From Hydrogenophaga sp. (GTDB lineage Bacteria > Pseudomonadota > Gammaproteobacteria > Burkholderiales > Burkholderiaceae_C), in the NCBI RefSeq assembly GCF_026125785.1, contig NZ_JAHCKL010000019.1, positions 1 to 64,000 on the forward strand: a DNA stretch of 64,000 nt. Direction: 5' to 3'. Positions 6,199 to 37,780 of the stretch are shown one piece after another (position 1 is the stretch's first letter; each line of letters opens with the position of its first letter). The translations under genes were made by a program, and so were the position numbers. The notes beneath the pieces are model-generated. The model saw only the letters and a list, made by a program, of their open reading frames with translations, was not told where the DNA came from and did not search any database.

Positions 6199-6474
6199 AT
6201 GGTCAATGGCGGCAAAGGCGAAGCAATGGCAAACGCTGAAGATGAGATCCTGACTCTGGACGAGGTTGCCGCCTATCTGAAGGCTGGCAAGCGAACGGTC
6301 TATAGGCTGGCTGCAGCCAAGAAGATCCCTGCCTTCAAGGTTGGCGGGACGTGGCGGTTCTTGCGCGCAGATATCGACCGCTGGATCAAGCAGCAGTCGA
6401 TGGAAGGGCTTGCCCCCGGTCGTGACGGGGATGACACAGCCGATGGCCAAACGAGCGATGGGGAGCGTAAGTAA
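6199..6474 (+). CDS. excisionase-type HTH (MerR-like) DNA-binding protein
   Basis: 91 aa (83 or so if ATG 6226 is used). The core is LTLDEVAAYLKAGKRTVYRLAAAKKIPAFKVGGTWRFLRADIDRWI, here given as segments LTLDEVAAYLKAGKRTVYRL and IPAFKVGGTWRFLRADID, a winged-helix of the excisionase/AlpA type. Its stop overlaps the next ATG (TAATG), so it is the first gene of the defence operon. It could be the operon regulator or a DNA-recognition subunit. Confidence 0.8.
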   Translation: MVNGGKGEAMANAEDEILTLDEVAAYLKAGKRTVYRLAAAKKIPAFKVGGTWRFLRADIDRWIKQQSMEGLAPGRDGDDTADGQTSDGERK

Positions 6475-9218
6475 TGCTTGGACTGACTCTACGGGATGAA
6501 TTTCGGGGCAAGCGCCTCAAAGGGACGGCCATTGAGCTCTCCAACGACTCCAACACCGGCGCGACCCAGATCGCGGCCCGGCAGTTCTTGGAGATTACCT
6601 ACCCCACGCATGATCTGCTGAAGGGCATCGAGGCCGTTGGCCCCAATCAGGGGCGTCCGGTAGTAGTGATCGGTGAGCGCGGCTTGGGTAAGTCGCACTT
6701 GATGGCCGCGCTCTACCATGCCGTCAGCGATGCCACATCGACCGGTGCATGGCTGAGTTCTTGGGCCACTACGCTGGGTGACGCCAACATCGGCAAGATC
6801 GCCTTGCGCGATGGAATGTTGGTCATTGGCGAGAGCTTGCACCGTCAGCGCTACAAATTCCTGTGGGACTTGCTGTTCGAGCGCCATCCTCGTGGCGAGT
6901 TCATCAAAGGCAAGTGGGAAGGTATGGGGTCGGCCAAGACCGATATCCCCTCCGACAAGCTCATCATTGAGCTGCTGGAGCACACGCCGACGATGCTGCT
7001 ACTGGATGAATTCCAGACCTGGTACGACGGCCTGACCAATACCAAGCAGTACCCGTGGAAGAACTGGGCGTTCAACTTTATCCAGATCCTTTCGGAGATT
7101 GCCAAGGAGCGGCCTGATCTGTTGGTGCTCGTGATCTCCGTGCGCAATGGTGGCAGCGATGCCTACCAGCAGGTTCACCGCGTCAATCCGGTGGCCATCG
7201 ACTTCAAGGCGGGTGGCAACGCCGAGCGTATCCAGCAGGATCGTCGGCGGATGTTGTTGCACCGCCTGTTCGACAACCGCCTGCAGATTGCCGACGGCAC
7301 CATTGAATCACTGGTCGCCCAGCACGTCTCGGAATGCTTCCGCCTGCTTGATGTGCCACCCTCCGAACAGGATCGCAAACGCCGCGAGTTCACCGAGTCT
7401 TGGCCTTATGCACCGCACCTGCTGCGTCTGCTTGAGGAGCAGGTGCTGATCGCCACTGACGCGCAGGAAACGCGCGACATGATTCGCATCCTGGCCAATC
7501 TTTACAAGAGCCGGGGCGAAGCCGTTCCCGTGCTCACCGCCGCCGACTTCCGGCTGGATGACGATACCTCGGGCATTGGCGCGCTGTTGGATTCGGTGTC
7601 CAACGAGCACCATCGCACCCTGCGCGAAAAGGCACAGCACAACATCATCTCGGTTACCGAGGCGGTGTACGACCACGCCAACCTTGCGCCACACCTGCAA
7701 GAGATCGTGGGCGCACTGTGGCTGCGGTCGATTGCTGTTGGTAACCTCGCTGGAGCCGATCCGGCCACGCTGCAGGTGGACATCACCCGCAGCAAGCCAG
7801 TGGACAGTAATGCCTTCCAGGTCGAGCTGGCGACGATTGTCGAGAACAGTTTCAACATCCATCAGGATGGCCCGCGTCTGGTCTTCCGTGAGGAAGAAAA
7901 CCCACGTGCCAAATTGATGGCTTGCGCTCGTAACGACAAGTTGTTTACAGATGGCTCCGATCAGGCGCAGCTGGCCAAGCAGGTTCGCTACGTCATCGGT
8001 GGCAGCGACGAGGTCGCCAAAACCTTCCGCGTGATTGCGCTGCCGAAATCTTGGCAGACGGACCCATGGACATCGCTCGACGAAGCCGAGCAGCCCGAGC
8101 GCTGGGACGACCGTTTGCCCGTCCTGGTGCTGCCGGAAGAGCCGGAGAAAGTCGACCAAACGCTGGGGCGTTGGCTCAAGGATCACCTGCAAAAGCGCCG
8201 CAACACCATTCGCTTCCTGCTGCCCAGATCGGGTTCCACCAATGCATTCTTGGATCGAGACTTGCTCATCCTCGCACGTGCCGAAATGAAGGCGCAGGAA
8301 TGGAGCGGCCAGAATCCGGAATACAAAAAGCTGCACAAAGAATTCGAAGGCACACTGCGTGACAACCTGAAGAAACGCTTTGACCGTTTCGCCGTCCTGC
8401 ACCGCTACGATCACCAGAACCCGCAGCAATCCCTGTTCAGTGTCGAGCACCTGAAAAAGCAAGGTGCGCAAATCCCCGAGGGCATCGAGGAAACGCTGGC
8501 CAACGATCTCTTTGTGCCAGAAGACTTCGAAGACCTCGTGCTCGAAGCGGCCTCGGAGAACGCGTCCCTTGGCAAGCTGCTGCGCGAATTGCAGGAGCCA
8601 CGCCCGGCGGGTCAGGACTGCATCCCTTGGCTGGGTGAAACCGCAATGAAGGAGCGCATCCTTCGTCTGTGCGCACGCGGCAAGATCGCCATCAACCTGC
8701 GCAATCTGGAGCATCTGCAAACCCACGCGGGCGAAGACGAGGACACCGCGTGGCGGCGCTTGCGGCCCAAGCTCTCCTACACGGGGCGTCAGCTGGATGA
8801 GGTATTCCTGATGGAGCCCTCGGCGGTGCCTGCCACTGGTGGCACTACGCCGCCCGCGCCGCAGCCGCCTGCTGGTGGAAACGGCGGTGATATCTTTGGC
8901 GGCGGAGGCACGACTACGCCACCCGCCCCACCTGCCGGTGGCGACAACACTCCCGGTACTGGTACATCGCCGAACGGAGGCGACATTTTTGGTGGCGGCA
9001 CAAGCACCACCAAACCGCGCATCCCGCTCTCTAACCCGCCAACCTCGCCGCTCAACCTGATCGGCAAGCTCGAAGGCTGGGGCATTGGCCCGGCCACGCC
9101 CGTGGCAGAAGTCTCGATCAAGGTGTCTGCCGCCACCGGCGCGCAGCTCAGGGAACTGCTCAAGAAACTGCCCGACGGCATGACTTTCGAGCTGAGTCTT
9201 GAGAAGGAGGACAACTGA
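6474..9218 (+). CDS. DUF499 / PglY-like ATPase
   Basis: 914 aa. A P-loop GERGLGKS at residues 67-74 is followed by Walker B MLLLDEFQTW near 175-182, as in DUF499/PglY AAA-type ATPases of Pgl/BREX-like defence loci. The long middle part is helical. Residues about 785-865 form a Pro/Gly/Thr-rich linker with GGDIFGGG present twice, followed by a compact C-terminal domain (LEGWGIGPATPVAEVSIKV). In Pgl systems PglY works with PglZ, whose gene follows here with a TGATG overlap. The assignment to the BREX/Pgl group comes from this ATPase plus its neighbours. Confidence 0.85.
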   Translation: MLGLTLRDEFRGKRLKGTAIELSNDSNTGATQIAARQFLEITYPTHDLLKGIEAVGPNQGRPVVVIGERGLGKSHLMAALYHAVSDATSTGAWLSSWATTLGDANIGKIALRDGMLVIGESLHRQRYKFLWDLLFERHPRGEFIKGKWEGMGSAKTDIPSDKLIIELLEHTPTMLLLDEFQTWYDGLTNTKQYPWKNWAFNFIQILSEIAKERPDLLVLVISVRNGGSDAYQQVHRVNPVAIDFKAGGNAERIQQDRRRMLLHRLFDNRLQIADGTIESLVAQHVSECFRLLDVPPSEQDRKRREFTESWPYAPHLLRLLEEQVLIATDAQETRDMIRILANLYKSRGEAVPVLTAADFRLDDDTSGIGALLDSVSNEHHRTLREKAQHNIISVTEAVYDHANLAPHLQEIVGALWLRSIAVGNLAGADPATLQVDITRSKPVDSNAFQVELATIVENSFNIHQDGPRLVFREEENPRAKLMACARNDKLFTDGSDQAQLAKQVRYVIGGSDEVAKTFRVIALPKSWQTDPWTSLDEAEQPERWDDRLPVLVLPEEPEKVDQTLGRWLKDHLQKRRNTIRFLLPRSGSTNAFLDRDLLILARAEMKAQEWSGQNPEYKKLHKEFEGTLRDNLKKRFDRFAVLHRYDHQNPQQSLFSVEHLKKQGAQIPEGIEETLANDLFVPEDFEDLVLEAASENASLGKLLRELQEPRPAGQDCIPWLGETAMKERILRLCARGKIAINLRNLEHLQTHAGEDEDTAWRRLRPKLSYTGRQLDEVFLMEPSAVPATGGTTPPAPQPPAGGNGGDIFGGGGTTTPPAPPAGGDNTPGTGTSPNGGDIFGGGTSTTKPRIPLSNPPTSPLNLIGKLEGWGIGPATPVAEVSIKVSAATGAQLRELLKKLPDGMTFELSLEKEDN

Positions 9219-10237
9219 TGGCGCTCGATGCAGGAATATTGCAGCGCCTGACTCAAGGCTCCGCTGCGGACGCGTGGCGCTTCATCATCGAACGCACGCT
9301 CGACATCGCCTCACGACCATTGGCAGAGGGCAATGCCCCGGGCGAGGTCATCAAGCGCGACCGCGAGATCGGCGAGCTCGATCTGTTCCTTGCGTCCAGT
9401 GGTTGGGATCTGTGGCGATGCTTCGGACAACCCGAGACCAGCGGCGTGGAACGCACCTCCGACCGCCTTGCGCGTTGGTGGGCCGAGCCGAGTTATGGCA
9501 ACGGTGCTGCCCGCGCCGTGCTGGTTCTGGATGCCTTGAGCCTGCGAGAACTGCCTTGGTTGCTGCAGGGCGCAAAAGAACGCGGCTTCACCCTGCAGGG
9601 CGTCACAGCCACCGCCTCCGAATTGCCCGGCGAAACCAACGAATTTGCCCGTGCAATTGGCTTGTCCAGTCGAAGCCAGTTGCAGGCCAACGGTGGCGGT
9701 TTGGCTCACAAGCTGCAACCGGCGCAGACCGAAACCATCGATCTGCCGTGGAAGGACTGCGAAGGCTTGGTGGGCAGTGCCTCGGGCGCGAAGAACTGGG
9801 TGTTCTGGCATCACTGGCCAGACGCCAAGCTGCACGACTACGGCGCAGGCCAAGGTCTGGAGCTGCTGACCAAAGATGCCGCGCAGCAACTGTCCAGCGA
9901 CGATTTCTGGGCCTTTGTTGAGCGCCTCGCCACTGGACGGCGCTTGGTCATTACCTCGGATCACGGCTACGCCGCCACGGGTTACTTCCCCGATGCCGAT
10001 GGTGAGGTCGCCGCCCATCTCAAGCAGACGTTTTCCAGTGGACGCAGCAAATCGGGTAATGGTGACGCAGGCCCCTTTGTTCCTCCGGTCGCGTTGCAAA
10101 TCGACAGCCCGCACGGCGCTCACCTGTTGGCGCTGGGCCGACGAAAGTGGCGCAGCCAAGGCGGTTACCCGACGCTGACGCATGGCGGCCTCTCGCTGCT
10201 GGAGGTGCTGTCGCCCTTCGTTGAACTATCGAAGTAG
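9218..10237 (+). CDS. compact PglZ-domain protein
   Basis: 339 aa, much shorter than usual PglZ proteins (typically well over 600 aa). It keeps alkaline-phosphatase-superfamily motifs: LVLDALSLRE (Asp105, Ser108), LVITSDHGYAATGYF (Asp248, His249) and LTHGGLSLLEVLSPFVEL (His322) near the C-terminus, the typical PglZ signature order. PglZ is a core component of BREX and Pgl defence. It starts in a TGATG overlap with the PglY-like gene, and the SIR2 gene starts six bases after its stop. It may be a minimal catalytic core with the usual N-terminal extension lost. Confidence 0.8.
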   Translation: MALDAGILQRLTQGSAADAWRFIIERTLDIASRPLAEGNAPGEVIKRDREIGELDLFLASSGWDLWRCFGQPETSGVERTSDRLARWWAEPSYGNGAARAVLVLDALSLRELPWLLQGAKERGFTLQGVTATASELPGETNEFARAIGLSSRSQLQANGGGLAHKLQPAQTETIDLPWKDCEGLVGSASGAKNWVFWHHWPDAKLHDYGAGQGLELLTKDAAQQLSSDDFWAFVERLATGRRLVITSDHGYAATGYFPDADGEVAAHLKQTFSSGRSKSGNGDAGPFVPPVALQIDSPHGAHLLALGRRKWRSQGGYPTLTHGGLSLLEVLSPFVELSK

Positions 10238-10243
10238 GTAGAT

Positions 10244-11320
10244 ATGACAGCCGCCGAATTGCCAGACGATTTTTTCGCAGACATCCAGGGGGTTTTTCGC
10301 AAAACCCCGGTGCTGCTAATCGGGTCTGGCTTTTCCTGCGGCTATGGCCTTCCCGGCATGGGGGCCTTGGCGGAGCACTTGGCAACCGCTGTCCGCGATG
10401 TGCTGTCCACCGATGAGGCAAGGAATACCTGGGCGCAATCAGTCGAAGCGATTAAGGAAAATCTGGAGACTGGCCTGAATGGCATTCCGCTTGGCATGGC
10501 GGAATGGGGAGAGATCGTGTCAGCCCTACGCGGAGAAACCGCGAAGTTGATTCTTGATAGAGCCATTGCAGCAGAGGCAAAGATTCTTGATGAAAAGGTG
10601 GCAGGCGGTCATGCGCCGTCACGTCTCCTGAACCGTTTGTTCAATGGCTCACCGCAAAATGCGGAAAGCATCCACGTCATTACGACCAACTACGATACGT
10701 TGGTGGAATTGTTTTGCGATCTCGCGGAAATTCCTCTGGACACTGGATTCACAGGGCTCCGTCGGCGTAAGCCACGCCCCCGACCACTTTTTCAGACGCA
10801 ATACAGCCGTGTTTTGGTGGCCGACAAACGCCAACAGCAGATCGATCACCGCATCTGTAAAACCGTTCGGCTGTATAAGCCTCATGGCTCGATCAGTTGG
10901 CTGACAACGGACGAGGGGCCATTGGAAGTTCTGAATGATGTTTCCATCGCAGAGCGAGCCATTGTCGTACCCGGCCCGTCAAAGTATCAGGATGCATTAG
11001 TCAACACGCTGTTCGATGCAATGCGTACCGAGATGAATGCGGTACTCGCCAATGCTCAGGCTCTTTTGTGTATCGGATTTGGCTTCAATGACGACCATTT
11101 GCAAGGCGTCATCAAGCGTCGACTGGCCGCAGGCATGCCCGCAATCATTGTCACGCGTGATCCCACCCTAAACATTGAACAACTGCTTGGCGAACACCCT
11201 CACGTGATTGCCGTGTTCAAAGACGGTGACGGGGCGGTTTGTCGCTGGAACGGGAAGGCACTGCGGTCACCAGAGCCGCTCTGGCAGCTTGATGACTTTT
11301 TGAAAAAATTTGTGGAGTGA
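10244..11320 (+). CDS. SIR2-family NAD-binding/NADase-like protein
   Basis: 358 aa. SIR2 motifs in order: LLIGSGFSCGYGLPG (residues 25-38, NAD-binding loop), VITTNYDTLVE (Asn149, Asp151), LYKPHGS (His214, the catalytic His) and LLCIGFGFNDDHL (about 275-286). Defence SIR2 proteins usually consume NAD+ when phage is sensed. The following gene is a HerA-type ATPase, matching the known two-gene SIR2-HerA arrangement. Sampled lines of this gene are about 45-53% GC, against about 65% in pglZ just before, which suggests a different origin. SD-like AGGTAG precedes the ATG. Confidence 0.88.
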   Translation: MTAAELPDDFFADIQGVFRKTPVLLIGSGFSCGYGLPGMGALAEHLATAVRDVLSTDEARNTWAQSVEAIKENLETGLNGIPLGMAEWGEIVSALRGETAKLILDRAIAAEAKILDEKVAGGHAPSRLLNRLFNGSPQNAESIHVITTNYDTLVELFCDLAEIPLDTGFTGLRRRKPRPRPLFQTQYSRVLVADKRQQQIDHRICKTVRLYKPHGSISWLTTDEGPLEVLNDVSIAERAIVVPGPSKYQDALVNTLFDAMRTEMNAVLANAQALLCIGFGFNDDHLQGVIKRRLAAGMPAIIVTRDPTLNIEQLLGEHPHVIAVFKDGDGAVCRWNGKALRSPEPLWQLDDFLKKFVE

Positions 11321-11327
11321 GGCGAGG

Positions 11328-13121
11328 ATGAGCATTTTCAATTTCACCGACGAGCAGTCATTGGGCGAAGTCCGCAGTGTTGAAACCTCGCGGATCACCG
11401 TGCGGGTAACGGACGGTCAGCGCCTGCAAAAAGCGCGCGTCGGTCGATTGGTTGCCATCCAGTCGATGGGGGATGAATGGCTGATTGGCATCATCGAACG
11501 GGTTTGGCGGCACCCGGTGGAACTACCGACGCTGCCCGAAGCTGATCCGCCAGCGGATTTGGTTGGTGTGCCCCAAGAGGAAAACGGCGTGTCGATCAGC
11601 TTGGTCGGCACCTATCGCGCTCGAGACGGGCAACGTAAGGACACCTTCACACGAGCTGTTTTCCTCTTGCCGGAAATCAACCGGTCGGTGTTCCCCATTG
11701 AAGAAAAATCTCTCGAAGACTTCATGGGCATCTTGAGCGCGTCCTCGAAGGCTGACGCAGCAGCCCCGCTCAAGGTCGGCACCTACACCCTGGACGGCAA
11801 GGCCAGCGCCTACATCGATGGCGACAAGCTCTTTCAGCGCCACTCTGCGCTGCTGGGTAGCACTGGTTCGGGAAAATCTTTCACCGTCGCCTCCATCCTT
11901 GAGCAGTCCGCACAACTACCTCACGCGAATATCGTCGTACTCGATTTACATGGCGAGTATTCGAGCATGAAATTCGCGTCGCATTACCGCATCGCAGGCA
12001 TTGGCGACATTAAGACCAAGAAAGACGGCGCGATCTTCCTGCCATTCTGGCTGCTGACCTATGACGAGATGCAATCAGTTTTTGTGGATCGTTCGGGGGA
12101 CAATGCACCCAATCAGGCACTTGCCCTGATGGATTCGGTCGTTGAAATGAAACGTGCTGCCATCAATGCGCTTGGCAAGCCAGAGCTGCTGGAAGGGTTC
12201 ACGGTCGACACACCGGTTCCCTACAAGTTGAATGACTTGGTGGAATCCCTCGACCGAAAAAACGACGAGGTCATTCCCACGGGCGAGGAATACGTCAGCG
12301 GTGCAAAGAAGGGCCAGCCCAAAACCGAAAAAGGCCCATTGAACGGCAAGCTCTCGCGCTTCTTAATTCGCTTGAAAACCAAGATGAACGACCGCCGCTA
12401 TGCGTTCATGTACCAAGCGCCGGAGGAGTACGAGACTTACGAGGCGCTGCACGAACTCGCAAAAAAACTGCTCGGCACGGGCAGCGTCAGCGATGGCGTC
12501 AATCCCGGCATCAAGATCATCGATTTCTCCGAGGTACCCTCGGACATCCTACCGGTGGTGGTGGGCTTGGTCGGGCGTCTGATCTACCAGATCCAGTTCT
12601 GGAGCAGCCCGGGCGAAGACGGTGATGCGCGCCACCCGATTGTCATCGTCTGCGATGAGGCTCACCTGTATTTACCAAGCAGTGCTGCCTCCACCGGGCC
12701 ACTGGAAAAGCGCGCCCTAGAAAACTACGAGCGCATTGCCAAAGAGGGCCGCAAATACGGTGTTGGACTGATGGTGGTTAGTCAACGCCCCTCGGATGTC
12801 AGCACGACCATTCTCAGCCAGTGCAGCAACATCATCAGCCTGCGCCTGGCCAACAAAACCGACCAGGCGGTGGTCAAGCAGCTCTTGCCAGAAAGCCTGG
12901 AGGGGCTGATGGAGGTGCTGCCGACGCTGGACGTAGGCGAGGCTGTGGTGGTCGGTGATGCCACCCTGCTGCCGACCCGCATCAAGATGTCGAAGCCCAA
13001 ACACGAACCGCGCAGTGCAACGATCCCCTTCTGGACCCGCTGGGCTGCGCCCAAGGCAGATGTCGATTTGGTTGCTGCTGTAGAAAACATGCGCAGGCAA
13101 TCCCGCGCACAAGAAGATTAA
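11328..13121 (+). CDS. HerA-type DNA-translocating ATPase (DUF87)
   Basis: 597 aa from ATG 11328, with GAGGCGAGG directly upstream and only seven bases after the SIR2 stop. An N-terminal HAS-like beta-barrel (about 1-120) precedes Walker A GSTGSGKS (177-184), NIVVLDLHGEYSSM, Walker B IVIVCDEAHLYLP, and the arginine-finger/sensor region VVSQRPSDVSTTILSQCSN, all typical of HerA/FtsK-like hexameric translocases. HerA partners of SIR2 form complexes that regulate NAD+ cleavage in known systems. It could also serve as the motor of the DUF499/DUF1156 machinery, since HerA-type ATPases also occur in such loci. Confidence 0.88.
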   Translation: MSIFNFTDEQSLGEVRSVETSRITVRVTDGQRLQKARVGRLVAIQSMGDEWLIGIIERVWRHPVELPTLPEADPPADLVGVPQEENGVSISLVGTYRARDGQRKDTFTRAVFLLPEINRSVFPIEEKSLEDFMGILSASSKADAAAPLKVGTYTLDGKASAYIDGDKLFQRHSALLGSTGSGKSFTVASILEQSAQLPHANIVVLDLHGEYSSMKFASHYRIAGIGDIKTKKDGAIFLPFWLLTYDEMQSVFVDRSGDNAPNQALALMDSVVEMKRAAINALGKPELLEGFTVDTPVPYKLNDLVESLDRKNDEVIPTGEEYVSGAKKGQPKTEKGPLNGKLSRFLIRLKTKMNDRRYAFMYQAPEEYETYEALHELAKKLLGTGSVSDGVNPGIKIIDFSEVPSDILPVVVGLVGRLIYQIQFWSSPGEDGDARHPIVIVCDEAHLYLPSSAASTGPLEKRALENYERIAKEGRKYGVGLMVVSQRPSDVSTTILSQCSNIISLRLANKTDQAVVKQLLPESLEGLMEVLPTLDVGEAVVVGDATLLPTRIKMSKPKHEPRSATIPFWTRWAAPKADVDLVAAVENMRRQSRAQED

Positions 13122-13131
13122 GGACGCTTGA

Positions 13132-16100
13132 ATGGCCACCAAAAAAGAACTACTCGCTCAGGAAGTCGCCAAGGCCGTTGGCGCGGGCAAGACGGTTGCG
13201 CTTGAAACCGTCGACTTCAACGATCCGAACCGTCCCAAGACTTGCTTGGAGGTCGATTTCCCGATCCTGCCTGTCAATCAGGTGGCCATCATTGAAGGTA
13301 ATGCGGGCAAGCCGATTTACCAGATGTCGAAGTGGTGGGCGCGGCGACGTTCCAGTGTGTTCCGTTCGATGTTGATCGCGGCGGCCACCAAGGCTCCGGA
13401 AGACAAGTCGCACGCGGCCAAGCTGGTGTGGGACAACTACTACGCCAACCACCAGAAGAAAGGCGCGTTCAAGCACCTGAAGGTGGCCGACATCTTCATG
13501 GGCGGCGGCACCACGCTGGTGGAAGGCTCGCGTCTCGGCATGCAGATGGTCGGCAACGATCTGAACCCGGTCGCGTGGTTCGTGGTCAAGCAAGAGCTGG
13601 CCAACGTCGATCTGGAACAAGTGAAAAAGCTGCTCGCCGACATCGAGGCCGAGGTCAAGCCGCAGATCATGCCGTACTACTACTGCGACGGCCCGAACGG
13701 CGAAAAGGGAACGTGGACGCACCTATCGACCAAAAAGGTGATGCCCGCCGACTTCGACCCGCTGACCATCCCGCGCGACGAGCGCAAGGACTACCGCTAC
13801 GAAGGCCCGGAGGCCATCTACACCTTCTGGGCCAAGCACGGCCCTTGTCAGGTGACGGGCTGCGGCCATCGCACGCCGATCATGAGCAGCCCGGTGATGG
13901 CGGTGAAGACCATCAGTGTGAAGCACTGGGAGCATTCGTGCAGCAAGTGCAGCGGCGAATTCCACGTTGAGGAAGACGCGGCACGCATGGCCCCGGATGC
14001 GCCACTGTATGTGGCACCGTCCGAACATCCGTTTTCCGTGCTCGACCGCCGGAAGGGCGTGATCTGCCCACATTGCGGTCATACGGCGATGGTCAACCTC
14101 GGGAAGGGCAAGAACAAGAAGGTCGAATTGAGCTTGCTCGTGCATCCGCAATGGTTGGCCGGTTCGCCAAAGCAGGATGCGAATAGTCAGCCTTACGGCG
14201 GCTCGGCGCAGGACGATGTGGCCGCGACCACCAGGTGGGACAGTGAGCGCGCATCCAAGATTCGGCTGCTGGAGGTGCGTGGCACGCTGCCGGAGGAAGT
14301 GACGTGCCCGGAAACGAAGATCACCTTCGCACCGGAAAACGGCACGGTGCCAAAGAAATCGCACTACGCCTGCGCTGCCTGCGGCACGGTGCAGGATGTG
14401 CTGACGACCATCAAGGCGACAGGCAAGACGGGGCCGATGGCCGCCTATGCGGTGCAGGGCTACGCACCCAAGCGCTATGCGGCAGGTAAACCCTACAGTG
14501 GCCGCTTCTTCGCTGCATACGGCACTGCGCACGCTCAGCAATACGACACCGCGTTCGCTGAATGGGAAGCGCGCAAAGATGACGACCTCAAGGACTACTG
14601 GCCGCGCTCTGAACTTCCCTACGGTTTCATGACCCACCATCTGCAAGGTGGCGTCCCGAACCACGGCTTCACCCACTGGTGGACGATGTTCAACCCGCGC
14701 CAGTTGCTGGTGCACACACAACTGCTCAAGGCCATTGTTGAAGTCGGCAACTACGACTGGAAGGTGCGCGAGTATGTGCTAGGCGCTTTCCAGAATTTCT
14801 TGCGCAATCAAAACTCGCTCGCTTTCTGGCACATGAAGCTCGACAAACTGGCTCCAGCCATGTCGAACAGCAACTTTCATCCTAAGAACAATGTGGTTGA
14901 AGTAGGTGTGTTCCCGCCAATGGGCTATGGCCCGTGGTCGTCCACCTATGAAGTTCTATTCAAAGGTGGGGAATGGGCGAAAACTCCGTGGGAGGCAGTG
15001 AGTGCGGAGTACCTAAATCGGCACGCACCGAGCATCGCTGGTGAGGTGTCAGGTAAAAGCGAAAAGGTTTACCCCGGCGATTCCTTGCTAGGCGCAACTA
15101 CGTATCAGGGATCGTCCACCGATCTGGCGCAGCTAGAAAGCGGTAGCCTCGATCTGGTCATCACCGATCCTCCGTTCGGTGGCCTGCTGCACTACTCGGA
15201 GCTGGCCGACTTTTTCTACGTCTGGCTGCGCTTGGCGCTCAAAGGCAAGTACCCAGAAATTTTCAATGCGGAGTACACGCCCAAATCGCTGGAGGCAGTG
15301 GCCAATCGCGCTCGTGAGCCGGAAGATCCGGATGGTTTCTACCAACGCCTGCTCACCCAGTGCTGGCGCGAGGCGCATCGCCTTTTGAAGCCCAGTGGCA
15401 TCTTGGCCTTCACCTTCCACCACAGCGAAGATGAACCGTGGGTGGCGGTGCTGGAGTCCTTGTTTGATGCCGGGTACTACCTCGAAGCGACGTACCCAAT
15501 ACGCTCCGACGAGACCAAGGGTGAAGGCGAGTTCGGCTCCAAGACCATCGAATACGACATCATCCACGTCTGCCGCAAGCGCACCGAAGAACCCAAGCCG
15601 GTGAGCTGGGGCCGCATGCGTCGCGAGGTGATGGCCGATGTGCGTCAGTTGCAGGCCATGCTAGAAAACCACGCCAAGGAGGGCCTGCCCGCCGCAGACA
15701 TTCAGGTGATCCGGCGCGGCAAGGCGCTGGAATATTTCTCTCGCCACTACGGCAAGGTCTATGTCGACGAAGGGCGCACGATTTCGGTCAAGGATGCACT
15801 GGTCGGTATCAACCAGCTCATCGACGAAGACGCCGACAAGGGCAAGGAGCCGCCGCCGGTGAATGCCGAGCCGATGACGCGGCAATTTCTGCGCACCTTC
15901 GGGACCGCGACAGAAATGAAGCGCGACCAATTACAGAAATTCCTGCGCGGCACCATCACCACACCAGATGACTTTGAGCAACGCGGGTGGTGCCGCGAGG
16001 TGAAGAAAGTTGTCACACGCACCAATCCGCTCGATTTCGCCCGCGATTGGTCGGGCAAACACAAGCGCAAGCTTACTTCCGACCTCGATCAGGCCCTGGT

Positions 16101-16341
16101 GCTGATCGGCGCATGTGTCGATGGCAGCGGCATCAATGCCTCGGACACGCTGAAGAACGATAACTTCAAGCCGCACGTGGCGCTCAAGCCGCTGCTGGAA
16201 TGGCTGCAGAAGAACGGCCCGGATCAAACCACCCGCAACGCAGCCTCACGCGCGGTGTCGATCTTCACCACCTGGCAAGCCAGCCAAGCACCCAAGCCTC
16301 TGCAGGCTTCGCTGTTCGATGACGATGGGGAGTATGCGTAA
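13132..16341 (+). CDS. DUF1156 Zn-ribbon adenine-specific DNA methyltransferase (PglX-type)
   Basis: 1069 aa. The N-terminal DUF1156 region has PIYQMSKWWARRRSSVFRSM (about 61-80), then the SAM-binding motif ADIFMGGGTTLVEG (119-132). Zinc-knuckle pairs (CQVTGCGH, CSKCSGE, CPHCGHT, CAACGT) fill the middle. The catalytic motif TDPPFGGLLHYSELADFFY lies near residue 680, followed by ILAFTFHHSEDEPW. This matches the methylase called PglXI in type-3 BREX. It would mark self DNA. It begins ten bases after herA and ends in a TAATG overlap with the next gene. Confidence 0.88.
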   Translation: MATKKELLAQEVAKAVGAGKTVALETVDFNDPNRPKTCLEVDFPILPVNQVAIIEGNAGKPIYQMSKWWARRRSSVFRSMLIAAATKAPEDKSHAAKLVWDNYYANHQKKGAFKHLKVADIFMGGGTTLVEGSRLGMQMVGNDLNPVAWFVVKQELANVDLEQVKKLLADIEAEVKPQIMPYYYCDGPNGEKGTWTHLSTKKVMPADFDPLTIPRDERKDYRYEGPEAIYTFWAKHGPCQVTGCGHRTPIMSSPVMAVKTISVKHWEHSCSKCSGEFHVEEDAARMAPDAPLYVAPSEHPFSVLDRRKGVICPHCGHTAMVNLGKGKNKKVELSLLVHPQWLAGSPKQDANSQPYGGSAQDDVAATTRWDSERASKIRLLEVRGTLPEEVTCPETKITFAPENGTVPKKSHYACAACGTVQDVLTTIKATGKTGPMAAYAVQGYAPKRYAAGKPYSGRFFAAYGTAHAQQYDTAFAEWEARKDDDLKDYWPRSELPYGFMTHHLQGGVPNHGFTHWWTMFNPRQLLVHTQLLKAIVEVGNYDWKVREYVLGAFQNFLRNQNSLAFWHMKLDKLAPAMSNSNFHPKNNVVEVGVFPPMGYGPWSSTYEVLFKGGEWAKTPWEAVSAEYLNRHAPSIAGEVSGKSEKVYPGDSLLGATTYQGSSTDLAQLESGSLDLVITDPPFGGLLHYSELADFFYVWLRLALKGKYPEIFNAEYTPKSLEAVANRAREPEDPDGFYQRLLTQCWREAHRLLKPSGILAFTFHHSEDEPWVAVLESLFDAGYYLEATYPIRSDETKGEGEFGSKTIEYDIIHVCRKRTEEPKPVSWGRMRREVMADVRQLQAMLENHAKEGLPAADIQVIRRGKALEYFSRHYGKVYVDEGRTISVKDALVGINQLIDEDADKGKEPPPVNAEPMTRQFLRTFGTATEMKRDQLQKFLRGTITTPDDFEQRGWCREVKKVVTRTNPLDFARDWSGKHKRKLTSDLDQALVLIGACVDGSGINASDTLKNDNFKPHVALKPLLEWLQKNGPDQTTRNAASRAVSIFTTWQASQAPKPLQASLFDDDGEYA

Positions 16342-16853
16342 TGAGGCAGGTGCTCGATACGGTGTGGCAACGGCGCGGCACCAGCTGGCTGTGGGATGAG
16401 GAAGCACGCAACACGGTGTGCGCAGCGGGAGAGGTGTGGAGTCTGCGGCAGTTCTTGCAGGCCGCCGCCCCGAATGGAAGTGGATGGCCGGATGACCTCC
16501 CCAGCAACGACAACCAGACGCTGGTGGTGGCCGGTCTTGAAGGCAGTCTTGATCTGCTGGCTCCCGATCAGGGCGAAATATGGCTATCCGACACGATCAA
16601 GCGCGCCATCCTTTCGTTTCAGGATGCCTACGCGGGCGAAGCCGCGCTGATTTTCTGGTTGCCACAGGGCAATAGCCGTCTCAAGGTGCAGACGTCCACC
16701 GATGCGGTTTCGTGGTTGTGTGAAGCGCCACACCGGGGCAGTCAGCTCGATTTTGGCCGCCTGCTTTGGGGCGAGGCCAACGAGTACCCGCAGGAGATTC
16801 TGCTGCGCGAGGGCGCGAAAGCGGCGGGCCTCTTCCACTTGCGAATTACCTGA
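16341..16853 (+). CDS. 170-aa protein of unknown function in the defence operon
   Basis: Starts in a TAATG overlap with the methylase stop and ends nine bases before the helicase. It is soluble, with Trp/Leu-rich segments (TVWQRRGTSWLWDEEARNT, AALIFWLPQGNSRLKVQTS) and a C-terminal ILLREGAKAAGLFHLRIT. No motif for catalysis or metal binding is visible. Conserved position between a DUF1156 methylase and an SNF2 helicase suggests a specificity or bridging subunit. I cannot assign a family; DUF3780, which is linked to DUF1156 loci, would be the first comparison to make. Confidence 0.7.
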   Translation: MRQVLDTVWQRRGTSWLWDEEARNTVCAAGEVWSLRQFLQAAAPNGSGWPDDLPSNDNQTLVVAGLEGSLDLLAPDQGEIWLSDTIKRAILSFQDAYAGEAALIFWLPQGNSRLKVQTSTDAVSWLCEAPHRGSQLDFGRLLWGEANEYPQEILLREGAKAAGLFHLRIT

Positions 16854-16862
16854 GGTCGGCGC

Positions 16863-19640
16863 GTGGAAGCAGAGGCTCAGTTTCAACCCGGCGAACGGAT
16901 CACCCACCACGAATTCGGCCAAGGTGTCGTTCTTGACCCGGCGCGTGATGGCTATTTGCGCGCCTTCTTCGGCGTGGGCGAGCGCCGTGTGCCGGTGGGT
17001 GCGGTGCGCCGTCAGCTCTCGCGCACCGAGCGCATCCTGCGTGCCGTCGATGGTGGCGCAGAGCGGGCGCGCAAAGCGTGGCTGTCCTACGAGGCCCACG
17101 CGCTGCCCGTCATGGAAAGCGCGTCGGCGCTGACCTCGGCCAAGATCGACCTGCTGCCACATCAAGTGGTGCTGACGCACCGTATTGCCACTGCATCTCC
17201 CCGGCGCTATCTGATTGCCGACGAGGTGGGCTTGGGCAAGACCATCGAAACCGCGCTGATTTTGCGAGAGCTGGCCAGCCGGGGCGAGCTGAACCGCGCG
17301 CTGATGGTGGTGCCCGCCGGGCTGGTGAACAACTGGCACCGCGAGCTGAACGAAGTGTTCAACCTCGACTTCGAGGTGTTCGGCTCCGAGGGCGATATCA
17401 CCGACCGCAAGACCAATGCTTTCGCCAAGCACGACCGGCTGATCGCGAGTATCGACACGCTCAAACGCCCGGCGCGTATCAAGCGCCTGCTGGACGCGCC
17501 GCGTTGGGATCTGGTGGTGTTCGACGAAGCACACCATCTGACGGCCTACCGCACCGGCGGCAAGGTGCGGAAGACGGAGAATTACAAGCTGGCCGAGGCG
17601 TTGAAAGATCATTCGCGTGACCTGATGCTGCTGTCGGCTACGCCGCACCAGGGCAATCACTTCCAATTCTGGATGCTGGCGCAGCTCCTGAACCCCACGC
17701 TGTTTGGCAGCCCCGAAGAGATGCTGGAGAACCGCCACCGTCTCAATACGGTGATGTTCCGCCGCACCAAGGCCGATGCCTGCCAGCCCGATGGTTCGCC
17801 GCTGTTTGCGCGGCGCTGGGTACATACCGAGTCTTTCCTGATGAATCAGGACGAGCGGCTGTTCTACGAGAAGCTGCGCGAGTATCTGGAGGATGGCTTC
17901 GATCTGGCACGTCGCCAGGGCGGCCAGGGGCGAGCCCTCGGCTTCTTGATGGCGATCTTCCAGAAGATTGCGGCATCGAGCTTCGCTGCCGTGCGGCGAA
18001 CCATGAAACGCCGCCTGCTGATGCTGACACTGCACGAGGCGCTGCTGCGCGACAAGGAGCTTGATATTGAAGGCCGTGAGCGGCTGACTGACGAAGCGCG
18101 GGCACTGATTCACGAAGAATTCGGACTGCCGCAGGACAGCATCGGGCGCAGCGAGGTAGATCGTGTGCTGGCTGACCTCAAGTACCGCTTGGTCAAAAAG
18201 CTGGACGAGGAGGCGCTGGAAATGGCCTCCGACCCTTACGGCAGCGAATATTCCGCAACGCACGCCGAGGAAGCGGCGTCGGCAGTCGTGGAACTCCACC
18301 TGCCCGAGGAGCGCCTGCGCATCGGCGATCTGCTCAAGGTCTTCCCGCAGCAGCGGGAAACCAAGGCACAGAAGCTGCTCGATGGTCTGGGCTATTTGTG
18401 GCGGCAGAATGCAAGCGAGAAGATCGTTATCTTTGCCACCTACCTCGGCACGGTTGATCTGATTGCCCGAGAGATTGAGCAGGCCTATCCCGGCCAGGGT
18501 GTGGTGGTGCTGCGCGGCGGTGACCACGGTGCCAAGCTGGCGGCAGAGCGGAAATTCCGCCTGAAAGACGGACCGCGTGTTCTGGTGTGTACAGCGGCTG
18601 GCCGCGAAGGCTTGAACCTACAGTTCGCGCGCATCCTGTTCAATTTCGATTTGCCGTGGAATCCGATGGATGTGGAACAACGCATCGGGCGCATCCACCG
18701 TTATGGACAGAACCACACGGCACAGGTCTACAACCTCGTCCTGTCCGACACCATCGAAGGGCGAATTTTCCTGATGCTCGACGAGAAGCTGACGGAAATT
18801 GCCAAGACGGTCGGCAAGGTCGATGACCAAGGCAACGTGGCCGAAGACCTGCGCGCACAGATTCTTGGCCAGCTATCCGAGCGCCTCAATTACGACCGCT
18901 TGTACCAGGAGGCGTTGTCCGACCCTGAGCTGAAACGCACACAGGTGGAGTTGGAGGCTGCGCTCTCGAATTCACGCGAAGCGCGGCAGGTGGTGTTTGA
19001 TCTATTCCAAGACCTCGAAGGCTTCAGTCTTGATGACTACAAGCCGTTCTCCGACGTGTCCTCCAGTCTGGATCGACTGGTGCGTTTCCTCTCGGCAGCG
19101 GTGGTGGATCGTCAGCAGCGCTTGGTCAAGATCGACGACGAGACCTACGACCTCGTGACTATTGATGGCGCACGTCGGGCACGATTTACCTTGAGCCGCG
19201 ATACAGCCACGAGCAGCGATAGCGTGGAATTGATGGGTCTGGATCATCCGCTGATACAGGAAGAGCTTGGACGCTGGCGCAGTGTTCCGCCCGAGGATGT
19301 TGGCATTGCGGTTTCAGGGGACGTAGACGCGCCGGTTCTACTTTCTCTCTGGATGGTTGAGGCGTCCGCAGGCAACGGTGAACGCCGCGTCGTCGTTCAA
19401 CCCATTGCCGTCAAGCAGGATGGCACACGGGTTCCGGCGGTCGAGAGGCAGGCTGAGCAATACCTGCAGGCACCAGTAACGTCTCCGAGGTTTGCGCCAG
19501 AGCAACGGCAGGAACTATTCGCGCATGTGGTTGAACCGACTCTGCAGCGGGAACTGAAACACAAGGGCGCAGCGAATGGAGACGGCAGCTATTCGGCGGA
19601 ACTGATTGGATACGTTGAAATCATGAATCAGGGGGCATGA
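16863..19640 (+). CDS. SNF2-family helicase (BrxHII/DrmD-like)
   Basis: 925 aa from GTG 16863. Motif I is LIADEVGLGKTIETALILREL (residues about 117-137, split here as LIADEVGLGKTIET and ALILREL); motif II is VVFDEAHHLTA; then LLSATPHQGNHFQF (motif III). The C-terminal helicase half has LVCTAAGREGLNLQ and EQRIGRIHRYGQ (motifs V and VI). SNF2 helicases of this build accompany PglZ/DUF1156 in BREX type-3-like loci and DISARM. Likely role: DNA translocation during restriction. The last bases (GGGGGCATGA) overlap the next ATG. Confidence 0.88.
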   Translation: MEAEAQFQPGERITHHEFGQGVVLDPARDGYLRAFFGVGERRVPVGAVRRQLSRTERILRAVDGGAERARKAWLSYEAHALPVMESASALTSAKIDLLPHQVVLTHRIATASPRRYLIADEVGLGKTIETALILRELASRGELNRALMVVPAGLVNNWHRELNEVFNLDFEVFGSEGDITDRKTNAFAKHDRLIASIDTLKRPARIKRLLDAPRWDLVVFDEAHHLTAYRTGGKVRKTENYKLAEALKDHSRDLMLLSATPHQGNHFQFWMLAQLLNPTLFGSPEEMLENRHRLNTVMFRRTKADACQPDGSPLFARRWVHTESFLMNQDERLFYEKLREYLEDGFDLARRQGGQGRALGFLMAIFQKIAASSFAAVRRTMKRRLLMLTLHEALLRDKELDIEGRERLTDEARALIHEEFGLPQDSIGRSEVDRVLADLKYRLVKKLDEEALEMASDPYGSEYSATHAEEAASAVVELHLPEERLRIGDLLKVFPQQRETKAQKLLDGLGYLWRQNASEKIVIFATYLGTVDLIAREIEQAYPGQGVVVLRGGDHGAKLAAERKFRLKDGPRVLVCTAAGREGLNLQFARILFNFDLPWNPMDVEQRIGRIHRYGQNHTAQVYNLVLSDTIEGRIFLMLDEKLTEIAKTVGKVDDQGNVAEDLRAQILGQLSERLNYDRLYQEALSDPELKRTQVELEAALSNSREARQVVFDLFQDLEGFSLDDYKPFSDVSSSLDRLVRFLSAAVVDRQQRLVKIDDETYDLVTIDGARRARFTLSRDTATSSDSVELMGLDHPLIQEELGRWRSVPPEDVGIAVSGDVDAPVLLSLWMVEASAGNGERRVVVQPIAVKQDGTRVPAVERQAEQYLQAPVTSPRFAPEQRQELFAHVVEPTLQRELKHKGAANGDGSYSAELIGYVEIMNQGA

Positions 19641-20941
19641 TGTTGGACGAATACTCCATCGAGCAGCGCGCGACGCAGATTTTCGACGCGCGCAGCAAGG
19701 AATATTTTTCCGAGGTGTTGAGCTGCTATTCGGCAGGCAACCATCGGTCAGCGGTCGTGATGCTCTGGTCGGTCGTGGTCTGCGACCTGTTGTTCAAGCT
19801 CCAGCATTTGGTTGATCTCTACGGGGATGCCAAGGCTAAGGGCATTCTGGCCGAGATTGGACAGATGCAGCAGGATAACGAGCGGTCGCCCGTGTGGGAA
19901 ACGAAGCTGGTGGAATCGGTGGCCGAGCAGACTCAGCTACTGGACATTGCTGAACGTGAAAATCTGCTCCATCTTCAACGGCAGCGCCATCTTGCAGCGC
20001 ACCCGGTGGTCAACGCGAATTTTCAGTTGCATCGCCCAAACCGGGACACAGCCCGCGCCCTGATTCGCAACGCACTTGACGGTCTGCTCACGAAGGCTCC
20101 GATTCTGTCGAAGCAGATTGTGGGTGATCTGGTCGAGGACCTTGAACAGGCATCTGGCATCCTGATCGATGACAAGAAGCTGAAGGCGTACCTGGAGAGC
20201 AAGTATTTCTCGCGCTTCAATCCGGAGGTCGAAAAGGCCGTATTCAAAGCCCTCTGGAAATTCGCATTCCGGCTGACGGACGAAAAATGCGAGAAAAACC
20301 GCGCCATCAACTACAGCGCGCTGACTCTGCTCTATAGTCGCAACCCCGGCCAGTTTCGAGCGCAGATCGAAGCCGACAAGGATTACTTCAGCACGATAGC
20401 GACTGGCGGCACGGCGCTTGTTTGCCTGATCCACTTTCTATCGCGTTCGGCCCCGATCTACGGGCTGTTGGCAGATCACGCTAAAACCGCGATTCAGCAT
20501 GTCGTCGACAATGACGTGTCATCCCGATGTTTGGCGTGCTTCACAGCAGCGTCCTTGCCGGAGCATGCCGAACGCCTGCGTGCGTGGATTGTTGGGGATA
20601 CGTATCCGGAGATCGGGCGCGAAACCTGGAATGCTTTGCGGGAAATATCGGATTCTCTGGAATGGGAGAAAACGGTAGTGCGTCTTGCAAGCGCGTACTA
20701 TGTAGCAAGCTCCAGCTACGACGGCGCGGACAGGCGCTTCAATGAGGCAATCCGGCCTTTGCTTCCGAAATTTGATCTGGACGACTGCATTGAGCTGATT
20801 CGCGGCATCGAACAAAACGGTCAGACGTGGGAGCGACGCGGAGCCTACACAGACCACAGGGAGCTTCGTGCTCGCGCGCTGGAGATAAACCCAGCAGCAG
20901 ATTTGACCGAGTACCAAGTGTTCAATCGGCACCTCGGATAA
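19637..20941 (+). CDS. HEPN-like protein, possible effector at the end of the defence operon
   Basis: 434 aa, ATGA-coupled to the helicase. The N-terminal 170 residues are all-helical, with QRQRHLAAHPVVN giving Arg117-x4-His122, the arrangement of HEPN ribonuclease or DUF4145-type domains (YSAGNHRSAVVMLWSVVVCDLLF is the usual first long helix, residues 31-53). The remaining part is a helical repeat-like domain without motifs. HEPN proteins in defence islands are often RNA-cleaving toxins. The domain call is by eye from helix pattern and the R-x4-H motif. Its stop directly abuts the stop of the convergent prophage endolysin. Confidence 0.6.
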   Translation: MMLDEYSIEQRATQIFDARSKEYFSEVLSCYSAGNHRSAVVMLWSVVVCDLLFKLQHLVDLYGDAKAKGILAEIGQMQQDNERSPVWETKLVESVAEQTQLLDIAERENLLHLQRQRHLAAHPVVNANFQLHRPNRDTARALIRNALDGLLTKAPILSKQIVGDLVEDLEQASGILIDDKKLKAYLESKYFSRFNPEVEKAVFKALWKFAFRLTDEKCEKNRAINYSALTLLYSRNPGQFRAQIEADKDYFSTIATGGTALVCLIHFLSRSAPIYGLLADHAKTAIQHVVDNDVSSRCLACFTAASLPEHAERLRAWIVGDTYPEIGRETWNALREISDSLEWEKTVVRLASAYYVASSSYDGADRRFNEAIRPLLPKFDLDDCIELIRGIEQNGQTWERRGAYTDHRELRARALEINPAADLTEYQVFNRHLG

Positions 20942-21400
20942 TTACATCAAGAGAGCCAATTCAGCGTGGCGACGGGCAACCAGTCCCGGCAGCACTTTCC
21001 CGCCGCCATAGACCCAGCGCCGAAGCTCCGTCGCGGCGGCAGCCCACTCCCGCTGGTTGACGCGCCGTCGCAGCGTCGATGTCTGCAATCGCCCTGCGCC
21101 AAGGTTGAACGTGAAATCCACGATGGCCGCGAGCCTTCTCTCGGGCTCTGTGGCCAGCACCGGGCAGTAGCGCAGCGTGGCGGCGAGCGCTGATTGCAGG
21201 TCGCGCGCCAGATAGACCTCGGCTTCGGCCTCGGTGATCGGCAGGTGCATTGGATCACAGAGGTGCCCGTAGCCAATCGTCCAGAAGCCTGCGGGGCAGA
21301 TGTAGGGGACGGCGGTGATCTCGACACCACGCTTGACCTTGCGCTCGAAACCTTCGAAGCGCTTGGCCAGTTCGATGGCCGTTCTTGGCACCTCGATCAC
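20942..21400 (-). CDS. GH24 lysozyme-like phage endolysin
   Basis: 152 aa from GTG 21400, chosen because it overlaps the preceding stop (GTGA). Glu in LAKRFEGFERKV is the expected catalytic residue; TIGYGHLCDP (the T/G-x-GYGH box) and the Thr/Asp region follow, as in phage T4/P22-type muramidases. LAAIVDFTFNLGAGRLQTST is the usual structural core. It hydrolyses peptidoglycan at lysis. No signal or anchor peptide is seen, so it needs the holin-like gene next to it. Its stop abuts the stop of the defence operon. Confidence 0.88.
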   Translation of the reverse strand: MIEVPRTAIELAKRFEGFERKVKRGVEITAVPYICPAGFWTIGYGHLCDPMHLPITEAEAEVYLARDLQSALAATLRYCPVLATEPERRLAAIVDFTFNLGAGRLQTSTLRRRVNQREWAAAATELRRWVYGGGKVLPGLVARRHAELALLM

Positions 21401-21873
21401 GGTCGCACCCGGTCGAACACGCGCCCGAGGAACCAGAAGTTCAGCACCCCGGCCCATAGGGCTTGGTCTGCCTCCGTCCAGGCATACAGGATGGCAACGC
21501 CCCAGCCAGCGCCACCCGTCACGGCGGCTGCGACTGTTGCCGTCTTGGTCGCACAGTACAGCGCCATGAACCAGTAGGTGATGACCGGGCGGACGCTGGA
21601 ACTCAGTGCATCGGCCCAGCGCACGCCGGTCTTCTCGCCCTGAGAGCGAACGGCTTCGCGCAGTGTTTCGATGGCCCCGACATTCCACGCGGCGTCGGCA
21701 CCAGCGCCGATTTCCGACATCCGCTGTGCGCCGCGAATCTTCTCGAATTCCAGCGCCTTGTCCTGCATCGCCAGTTCGTGGCCGCGCTCACCCTTGCGGT
21801 CGAGCCACTTGAGGACTTCAGGGGCAAGACGGAAGGCCCCGCCAAGGAGGCCGCCAAGTAGTGTCTCGATCAT
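21397..21873 (-). CDS. phage membrane protein, probable holin
   Basis: 158 aa from ATG 21873. A charged helical N-terminal half (LKWLDRKGERGHELAMQDKA) is followed by two or so hydrophobic segments (VRPVITYWFMALYCATKTAT, AVTGGAGWGVAILYAW and LWAGVLNFWFLGRVF). It is translationally coupled to the endolysin by GTGA, the expected position for a holin. Sequence-level identification as a holin family was not possible. Confidence 0.6.
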   Translation of the reverse strand: MIETLLGGLLGGAFRLAPEVLKWLDRKGERGHELAMQDKALEFEKIRGAQRMSEIGAGADAAWNVGAIETLREAVRSQGEKTGVRWADALSSSVRPVITYWFMALYCATKTATVAAAVTGGAGWGVAILYAWTEADQALWAGVLNFWFLGRVFDRVRP

Positions 21874-22175: not shown

Positions 22176-22194
22176 TGGCGTTCTCCAGAAATGC

Positions 22195-22219: not shown

Positions 22220-22242
22220 TGGTGGGTGCGAAGGAAGGAAAG

Positions 22243-22593: not shown

Positions 22594-22596
22594 GGT

Positions 22597-37779: not shown

Positions 37780-37780
37780 G

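Follow-up and report, generated by a model that had tools for sequence, protein, structure and literature searches.

Defence modules, among them SIR2-HerA, alternate at a fixed position within operons resembling Type-3 BREX-Related systems: a prophage locus of Hydrogenophaga sp.

Introduction

The closest described relatives of the locus treated here are the DUF499-centred BREX-Related (BR) systems, described and named by Rakesh and Krishnan (Nucleic Acids Research, January 2026; PMC12839542). According to the text of that paper, Type-3 BR, recorded from 569 taxa, comprises an ATPase, an N6-methylase with a nested target-recognition domain (TRD) and a zinc-finger 4C motif (two such motifs in a subset of the methylases), a BrxHII-like helicase without nuclease and a standalone, active PglZ, and an inactive STAND (iSTAND) gene occurs in 82% of Type-3 BR taxa; Type-1 BR consists of ATPase, methylase and helicase only. 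Backup nucleases or effectors are proposed there for BREX and BR, Type-3 BR and BRC being said to be without auxiliary nucleases or to retain few instances; the effectors catalogued are nucleases, and the main text names neither SIR2, sirtuin nor IetA (PMC12839542). The present work concerns an operon at positions 6199–20941 of a 64,000-nucleotide stretch of Hydrogenophaga sp. DNA (assembly GCF_026125785.1, contig NZ_JAHCKL010000019.1, positions 1–64,000 of the forward strand; the whole stretch is called the window), in which a SIR2-HerA gene pair lies between pglZ and the methylase gene of such a core. SIR2-HerA is reportedly the defence system of Gao et al. 2020. Comparison with related loci indicates that the operon looks like a conserved platform with exchangeable defence modules, not one fixed machine.

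Results and Discussion

Operon organization

Nine open reading frames (ORFs), all on the + strand, make up the operon; the gap between pglZ and the methylase gene, slot A, is listed with them.

6199..6474, + strand: helix-turn-helix (HTH) protein of excisionase/MAD1 type, 91 amino acids (aa), probable operon regulator (HTH_17 match)
6474..9218, + strand: DUF499 AAA+ ATPase, 914 aa (Walker A GERGLGKS, Walker B MLLLDE)
9218..10237, + strand: predicted standalone PglZ-fold phosphodiesterase/nuclease, 339 aa (AlphaFold model, Foldseek, conservation)
10238..13131, + strand: slot A, pglZ stop to methylase start, variable in content among loci
10244..11320, + strand: SIR2 protein, predicted NADase, 358 aa (Pfam, PADLOC, motifs)
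11328..13121, + strand: HerA-type ATPase, partner of SIR2, 597 aa from the ATG (TTG 11310 a possible start)
13132..16341, + strand: N6-adenine methylase of DUF1156 type, 1069 aa (TDPPFGG motif, two 4C motifs)
16341..16853, + strand: 170-aa core protein without assigned family (model pLDDT 92.4)
16863..19640, + strand: SNF2 helicase of BrxH/DrmD type, 925 aa (Pfam, PADLOC)
19637..20941, + strand: PD-T7-3 family protein, 434 aa, in the variable tail slot D (PADLOC, Rx4H HEPN-like motif)

The co-directional, tight arrangement of nine genes given in a preliminary description of this DNA was borne out, the eight junctions ranging from a 4-nt overlap to a 10-nt gap when HerA is started at ATG 11328. 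Overlaps of 1 nt join HTH to DUF499, DUF499 to pglZ and the methylase to the 170-aa gene, and SNF2 overlaps the PD-T7-3 gene by 4 nt; the gaps are 6 nt (pglZ/SIR2), 7 nt (SIR2/HerA), 10 nt (HerA/methylase) and 9 nt (170-aa gene/SNF2). With the alternative TTG start at 11310 the HerA ORF would overlap SIR2 by 11 nt. From the spacing we infer that the nine genes are made as one message. A promoter scan of the operon gave 0 sites against 4.1 in shuffles, and the promoter/terminator scan was uninformative.

Gene content of slot A and the other gaps in related loci

A methylase profile search of genome contigs, from which the best 80 of 108 relatives were retained, contributed to a survey of 94 distinct loci with pglZ and methylase (79 genome contigs, 8 viral contigs, 3 plasmids, 3 further genomes and the window). 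L010 (a near-copy of L007), L017, L019, L102–L105 and L107 were left out before counting as duplicates, and the core-less L021, the short search loci L001–L006 and L083, with no visible pglZ, were likewise kept out of the counts. The record titles name Alpha-, Beta- and Gammaproteobacteria and, as single loci, Acidobacteria, Akkermansiaceae, Synergistaceae, Chlorobiota and others; many records are metagenome-assembled genomes, and the taxonomy of single loci is uncertain. The five core genes (DUF499, pglZ, methylase, the 170-aa gene and SNF2) stand in the same order in 83 of the 83 loci that show all five, an arrangement beyond chance. An HTH gene was detected in 37 of the 87 loci whose upstream side is visible.

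Nothing lies in slot A in 64 of the 94 loci; SIR2-HerA is present in 9, counting the window and one broken copy, IetAS in 9 and other genes in 12; for the 79 genome-contig loci the corresponding figures are 54, 7, 7 and 11. An empty slot is shorter than 150 bases, as a rule 15, made up of TAAGGA and nine more, up to the methylase ATG. The SIR2-HerA loci are the window, L007, L024, L025, L046, L068 (broken), L070, L085 and L087, both genes being full length and free of stops in eight of the nine. Since the pair is present in eight distinct loci besides the window, a one-off insertion of SIR2-HerA, the outcome that the preliminary description had named as speaking against its reading, is rejected. 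IetAS loci carry a 334- to 347-aa AAA ATPase followed by a large subtilase-type gene (>800 aa); the L016 pair was identified as IetA and IetS by PADLOC (E 3e-144 and 0), and the other eight by BLAST clustering with L016. The remaining cargo, annotated in representatives only, includes PemK family proteins (L019/L079 and L073 by Pfam, L093 and L096 by BLAST cluster) and a PIN protein (L034). Unclassified proteins of 307 to 315 aa are encoded at L033:9052-9999, L054:9075-9998 and L100:9063-10001; those of L033 and L054 gave no Pfam or PADLOC match, that of L100 clusters with L054, and all three are possible novel effectors. Further unclassified genes are found in this group.

Cargo is also found further downstream. 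The gap separating methylase and 170-aa gene contains, in two loci, the same pair of a Schlafen/HATPase gene with a ParA-like ATPase gene behind it (L073:13733-16008, L086:9382-11573) and, in a viral contig, a class 3 lipase gene (L108:13241-14500). The gap between the 170-aa gene and SNF2 accommodates an OLD/AbiL-like AAA protein (HEC-01A by PADLOC in L034; L039, L087 and L093 by BLAST) together with DUF4276 (L034, L039, L087, L093, L045 and L063, Pfam), or a Schlafen-AlbA/HATPase protein in L035, with which a protein of L038 showing only HATPase and TPR parts clusters. Whereas Type-3 BR as published has few or no auxiliary nucleases, inserts of more than 300 bases are present in one or more of the three gaps A–C in 36 of the 84 loci that show all three (in two gaps in 7 loci), and non-nuclease modules are prominent among the contents.

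The tail slot after SNF2 varies as well. PD-T7-3 homology is found there in the window, L038, L052, L085 and L092, with a distant relative in L096. The last gene of the window operon had been called HEPN-like, a fair label given its Rx4H motif, which is present in 5 of 5 aligned members; its actual family is PD-T7-3, matched over residues 4–430 (PADLOC E 6.1e-164), and the difference from PD-T7-3 as known lies in its position at the tail of a BR operon. PD-T7-3 is placed under HEPN in a table of one source (PMC10952713), and its protective effect is reported by Vassallo et al. 2022 (PMC9519451). On the Klebsiella plasmid L007, a C-terminal PD-T7-3 remnant (about residues 367–433) follows SNF2 at L007:29172-29372, from which it appears that a tail-slot gene was once present and then lost. 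GmrSD-type restriction genes follow SNF2 in L011 (checked by hidden Markov model), L012 and L029 (BLAST cluster), and a reverse-transcriptase gene lies directly downstream of SNF2 at L062:16552-18090.

Module exchange between cores

Nearly identical cores carry different modules. L023 (IetAS) and L025 (SIR2-HerA), both of Stutzerimonas, are 98% identical in DUF499, 96% in PglZ, 93% in the methylase and 98% in SNF2. A second copy of the operon in the window's own genome, on contig C25, carries IetAS, and its DUF499, PglZ, methylase and SNF2 are 95, 87, 95 and 92% identical to those of the window. Conversely, IetA and IetS of L023 and L029 are 95 and 92% alike although DUF499 and PglZ are 84 and 79% identical.

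Trees were quick LG+G4 reconstructions, with long-branch warnings for distant rows, and the change counts taken from them do not separate gain from loss. On the DUF499 tree (87 loci) the distribution of SIR2-HerA (9 rows) takes 7 changes to explain and that of IetAS (9 rows) takes 9; the SNF2 tree (75 rows) takes 4 for SIR2-HerA (8 rows) and 4 for IetAS (6 rows). On the SNF2 tree the labels are more clustered than by chance (as few changes arose in 0 and 2 of 500 shuffles), so related cores tend to share a module. Approximately unbiased (AU) tests with 81 rows rejected a single clade for SIR2-HerA (p 5.8e-5) and for IetAS (p 5e-35). The junctions common to these loci are equally compatible with a single ancestral insertion of each module, later spread by recombination, and with repeated insertion.

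The sequences flanking slot A add to this picture. The pglZ tail reads LSPW[IL]EIS in 7 of the 9 IetAS loci, and a tail SPW was found in 0 of 64 empty, 0 of 9 SIR2-HerA and 3 of 12 other loci; such a distribution would be predicted if homologous recombination carried pglZ ends along with the module. On the other side, the most variable stretch of the methylase, the target-recognition-like residues 551–650, has a median identity to the window of 52–54%. It is 94–100% alike between the window and its second copy despite their different modules, and 40–54% alike between the window and L007 despite the same SIR2-HerA. It follows that the presumed target specificity and the docked module assort separately. 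No title or abstract describing this module exchange was found in the open-licence literature, subscription papers and preprints lying outside its coverage.

Classification of the core and its proteins

By its predicted parts, and not by placement in a DUF499 clade, the core of the window (DUF499 ATPase, PglZ, N6-methylase, 170-aa protein, SNF2 helicase) is assigned to Type-3 BR. Four of five features of that type are present, namely a DUF499 ATPase, a methylase with two 4C motifs, a nuclease-free BrxHII-like helicase and a standalone PglZ with intact active site; an additional small core protein is a further likeness. The ATPase matches PF04465 (E 2.1e-7, 29.6 bits, cut-off 23, Pfam), and its Walker motifs are found, with minor variants, in 87 of 87 rows. 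The methylase matches N6_N4_Mtase PF01555 (E 4e-7, Pfam), its DUF1156 match falling below the cut-off; TDPPF is present in 89 of 89 rows, and the putative zinc-finger 4C motifs (C239 C244 C270 C273 and C312 C315 C414 C417) are invariant in 11 of 11 sequences. The helicase matches Pfam SNF2 (E 4e-21) and, as best PADLOC model, BrxHI/HII (E 6.8e-102); Pfam showed helicase/ATPase families only and no nuclease domain in it.

That the parts are BREX-like and correspond to no canonical BREX type, as first described, agrees with our searches: BrxA, BrxB/F, BrxC (DUF6079), BrxL and PglW were absent among the listed matches of the nine proteins (Pfam, PADLOC, NCBIfam). Canonical BREX type 3 was rejected, BrxA/B/F/L not being found among those matches. 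MADS was also rejected: only the HTH protein passes an equivalog cut-off (NF047737 'MAD1', 85.3 bits, cut-off 80, NCBIfam), HerA versus mad8 (E 8e-23) and the methylase versus mad2 (E 4e-8) are far below their best families, no further mad genes appear among the best matches of the nine proteins, and the full mad1–mad8 set is not there. The helicase matches HmaA (1.4e-90) and the methylase HmaB (1e-36), but the HmaC match is weak (2e-4); Hma/Type-1 BR was rejected, the window core adding PglZ and the 170-aa gene and its helicase lacking a nuclease.

That SIR2 and HerA lie intact between pglZ and the methylase gene is confirmed by family matches (SIR2_2, Pfam E 9e-12; PADLOC SIR2 E 3.5e-88; PADLOC HerA E 3.7e-225) and by motifs: GSGFS, TTNYD and KPHGS of SIR2 and the Walker motifs of HerA are retained in 9 of 9 full-length copies (eight in slot A, window included, and an Escherichia coli pair described below). 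Sequence comparison links both proteins, distantly, to SIR2 and HerA chains of solved structure. The gene adjacency, the conserved catalytic and Walker motifs and the strong PADLOC matches are shared with the known SIR2-HerA system, but the scores lie well under the NCBIfam equivalog cut-offs (49 of 500 and 301 of 850), which indicates a distinct subfamily, and here the pair is docked within the operon of another system. IetAS, which occupies the same slot in nine loci, is not in the window operon but in the genome's second copy.

The PglZ profile PF08665 matched nothing in the whole genome, nor any of the 36 members of the PglZ alignment at E 0.1, and the identity of the 339-aa protein therefore rests on fold and residues. 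The alignment comprised the window protein and 35 of 36 preselected loci (L101 omitted), out of 83 usable ones. D105, S108, D202, H206, D248, H249 and H322 are invariant in its 36 rows, and we take these seven to be the metal ligands and nucleophile of the superfamily. Matches to PADLOC and NCBIfam PglZ models were weak (E 0.085 and 0.0034). The AlphaFold model (mean predicted local distance difference test, pLDDT, 83.7) matched PorX (8thp, Foldseek E 4.7e-10) and chain B of an Acinetobacter BREX BrxC-BrxB/PglZ complex (9zn5, E 1.6e-7), and the TSDHG and HGG stretches align with PorX at a weak E-value of 0.05; PorX includes a PglZ domain, as the BR paper states (PMC12839542). The invariant residues and these fold matches suggest that the protein is likely an active, standalone PglZ.

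The 170-aa gene is part of the core. Its protein was aligned with those of 34 loci of 76, and PADLOC gave no match for any of the 35 members. Foldseek of the model found nothing at E 0.001 or better, the weak matches (E >= 0.38) including many RecA-like folds; it is possibly the inactive STAND (BrxB/BrxF-like) protein of Type-3 BR.

Occurrence of SIR2-HerA away from an intact core

Among 398 sampled genomes of the phylum, DUF499 was found in 5, the window's own included, and the SIR2 query (E 1e-40) recovered the window's own genome only; against viral contigs this query gave no match. This SIR2 subfamily is thus rare. PglZ was encoded in no phage record at E 1e-5.

Twenty of 5,426 E. coli genomes matched window positions 6474–14000, each over SIR2-HerA and 55 bases upstream only. 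The E. coli proteins are 84 and 92% identical to those of the window, and both genes are full length, in the one context inspected (L021), which is chromosomal, in an integrated element and without core. About 50 bases upstream of this SIR2 (L021:14000-14053) resemble the end of pglZ with its stop: the local alignment score is 33 against the window and 38 against L007, the maxima of 500 shuffles each being 27 and 24, and all shuffles are exceeded even without the last 18 bases. The other loci scored 29 (L068) and, more weakly, 21 (L046), 20 (L070), 20 (L085), 17 (L025) and 16 (L024). Kilobase blastn queries had missed this trace of pglZ, which local alignment then recovered.

In two further loci either the pair or a core gene beside it appears incomplete. 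In L068 a broken SIR2-HerA lies beside a full-length core, and on the Klebsiella plasmid L010 a full-length SIR2-HerA lies next to a DUF499 match that begins at residue 214. The E. coli genes, full length without a core, together with L068 and L010, favour autonomy of SIR2-HerA, as far as gene content can indicate it. This SIR2 type occurs on 34 plasmid records, 32 of them typed conjugative (L007 and L010 inspected). In at least 9 of 20 listed plasmid records the DUF499 gene matches residues 214–914 only, and a blaKPC-2 gene is found near the L010 locus.

Proposed mode of action and alternatives

We propose, with a probability of roughly 0.57, that a Type-3 BR core resembling restriction-modification (R-M) is co-expressed with docked, exchangeable and largely autonomous abortive modules. 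The roles given to the core are those expected from its families. The methylase would tag the cell's own DNA, its variable region determining the site; the DUF499 ATPase, SNF2 helicase and 170-aa protein would assemble on unmarked invading DNA, which PglZ would nick or block. SIR2-HerA would act as a largely autonomous second layer, infection being sensed by HerA with SIR2 through a trigger of their own, with no signal from the core, and NAD+ being depleted; PD-T7-3, a HEPN protein and probable RNase, would be a third layer. Carried on the core's transcript, modules would be gained, expressed and transferred as a unit with the core, and would be exchanged through homologous recombination in the conserved sequences on either side. 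The suggestion in the preliminary description that methylation system and NADase may form one machine was not supported in an obligate form: slot A is empty in 64 of 94 loci and filled by IetAS in 9, the E. coli pair is core-free, and different modules accompany cores whose DUF499 proteins are 98% identical. An obligate SIR2-core machine is rejected on the same grounds of empty or swapped slots and a pair without core.

Three sets of observations weigh against largely autonomous modules. In many loci the module directly adjoins the start codon of the methylase gene or overlaps it, which suggests operon adaptation, from which regulated dosage or contact could follow. All nine SIR2-HerA and all nine IetAS pairs lie in slot A, neither having been found in slot B or slot C, a restriction that could reflect a functional need for this position and that a single ancestral insertion spread via recombination explains too. 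The pglZ trace indicates that the E. coli pair probably left a BR operon and is not of independent origin; derivation from such an operon is, on this alignment, most likely. The fixed slot, the coupling to the methylase start and the BR-derived look of the E. coli pair speak for a PrrC-like guard, in which the core would hold the docked module inactive until a phage that inhibits or bypasses the core releases it, with NAD+ depletion as the result; this extends the idea of the preliminary description to any docked module. The precedent is prrC, embedded in the EcoprrI type IC operon, PrrC being described as kept sequestered by the R-M complex until infection with T4 (PMC3874165), and backup effectors as such are among the proposals of Rakesh and Krishnan (PMC12839542). 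Both cases have an effector gene between core genes of an R-M operon; EcoprrI has a single sequestered effector, whereas here several unrelated modules alternate. With SIR2-HerA, IetAS, PemK-type and unclassified modules all fitting the same core, one contact surface is unlikely; SIR2-HerA is present in E. coli without core, and it is full length in L010 beside the shortened DUF499 match, where loss of the guard would be expected to be toxic. We hold a guard to be a tentative possibility.

It is improbable, in our estimate, that genes accrete passively, the space between pglZ and the methylase gene merely tolerating cargo deposited by recombination and co-expression having no selected role. 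Several unrelated small genes of no known family in slot A, the occupation of slots B, C and D and the predominance of the empty state would suit such accretion, but most family-matched genes in slots A–C are of defence or toxin types (SIR2-HerA, IetAS, PemK, PIN, AAA with DUF4276, Schlafen), the exceptions being the lipase, the ParA-like ATPase and a weak aspartyl protease match; in addition, eight of the nine SIR2-HerA loci are intact and two module pairs recur nine times each. We give slightly less credit still to the idea that the modules mainly stabilise the carrying prophage, integrative and conjugative element (ICE) or plasmid against competitors or loss. The location of the operon on a prophage and an ICE-like contig, the conjugative plasmids with this SIR2 and the PemK and PIN toxin families among the modules would agree with addiction of this kind, but no antitoxin-like gene stands beside SIR2-HerA or IetAS in slot A; the chromosomal E. 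coli pair in its integrated element is neutral in this respect.

Prophage setting and second copy

The Type-3 BR assignment, the identity of the PD-T7-3 gene, the prophage location and the second copy with other cargo go beyond the preliminary description. The window operon is located in a prophage, between the following features.

2453..4084, + strand: large serine recombinase (Resolvase and Recombinase domain matches), left side of the prophage
4012..5867, + strand: two ParB/RepB-type genes (4012-4992 and 4980-5867) between recombinase and operon
20942..51496, - strand: prophage genes for lysozyme, tail, tape measure, major head, protease, portal, terminase, two DNA methylases and primase

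Of 15 proteins scanned in 20942..51496, 12 gave phage-type matches in Pfam or PHROG. Two adjacent ParB-domain/DNA-methyltransferase genes at 45053-47697 (- strand) both have phrog_498 as best match. The copy on contig C25 is flanked by a relaxase-like DUF3363 gene and by TraG-, secretion-ATPase (T2SSE)-, TrbC- and TrbE-like genes, and these conjugation-type flanks indicate that it is ICE-like.

Conclusions

Within one operon, entire defence systems are exchanged like cassettes at a single fixed junction, and such operons are carried by a prophage, by an ICE-like element and by plasmids. This qualifies the published statement, which concerns nucleases, that Type-3 BR has few or no auxiliary effectors (PMC12839542). 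Somewhat speculatively, Type-3 BR might be a plug-in immune platform whose core and fixed docking site license or guard whole effector systems (the NADase SIR2-HerA, the protease IetAS, a PemK-type nuclease and others); TRD specificity and mode of killing would then be independently exchangeable cassettes, and modules could leave, as the pglZ trace in E. coli suggests. Natural matched pairs with the same core and a different module, as in Stutzerimonas (L023 and L025) and in the two copies within one cell, allow a direct test of whether co-encoded backup effectors are functionally tied to the restriction core or simply accompany it.

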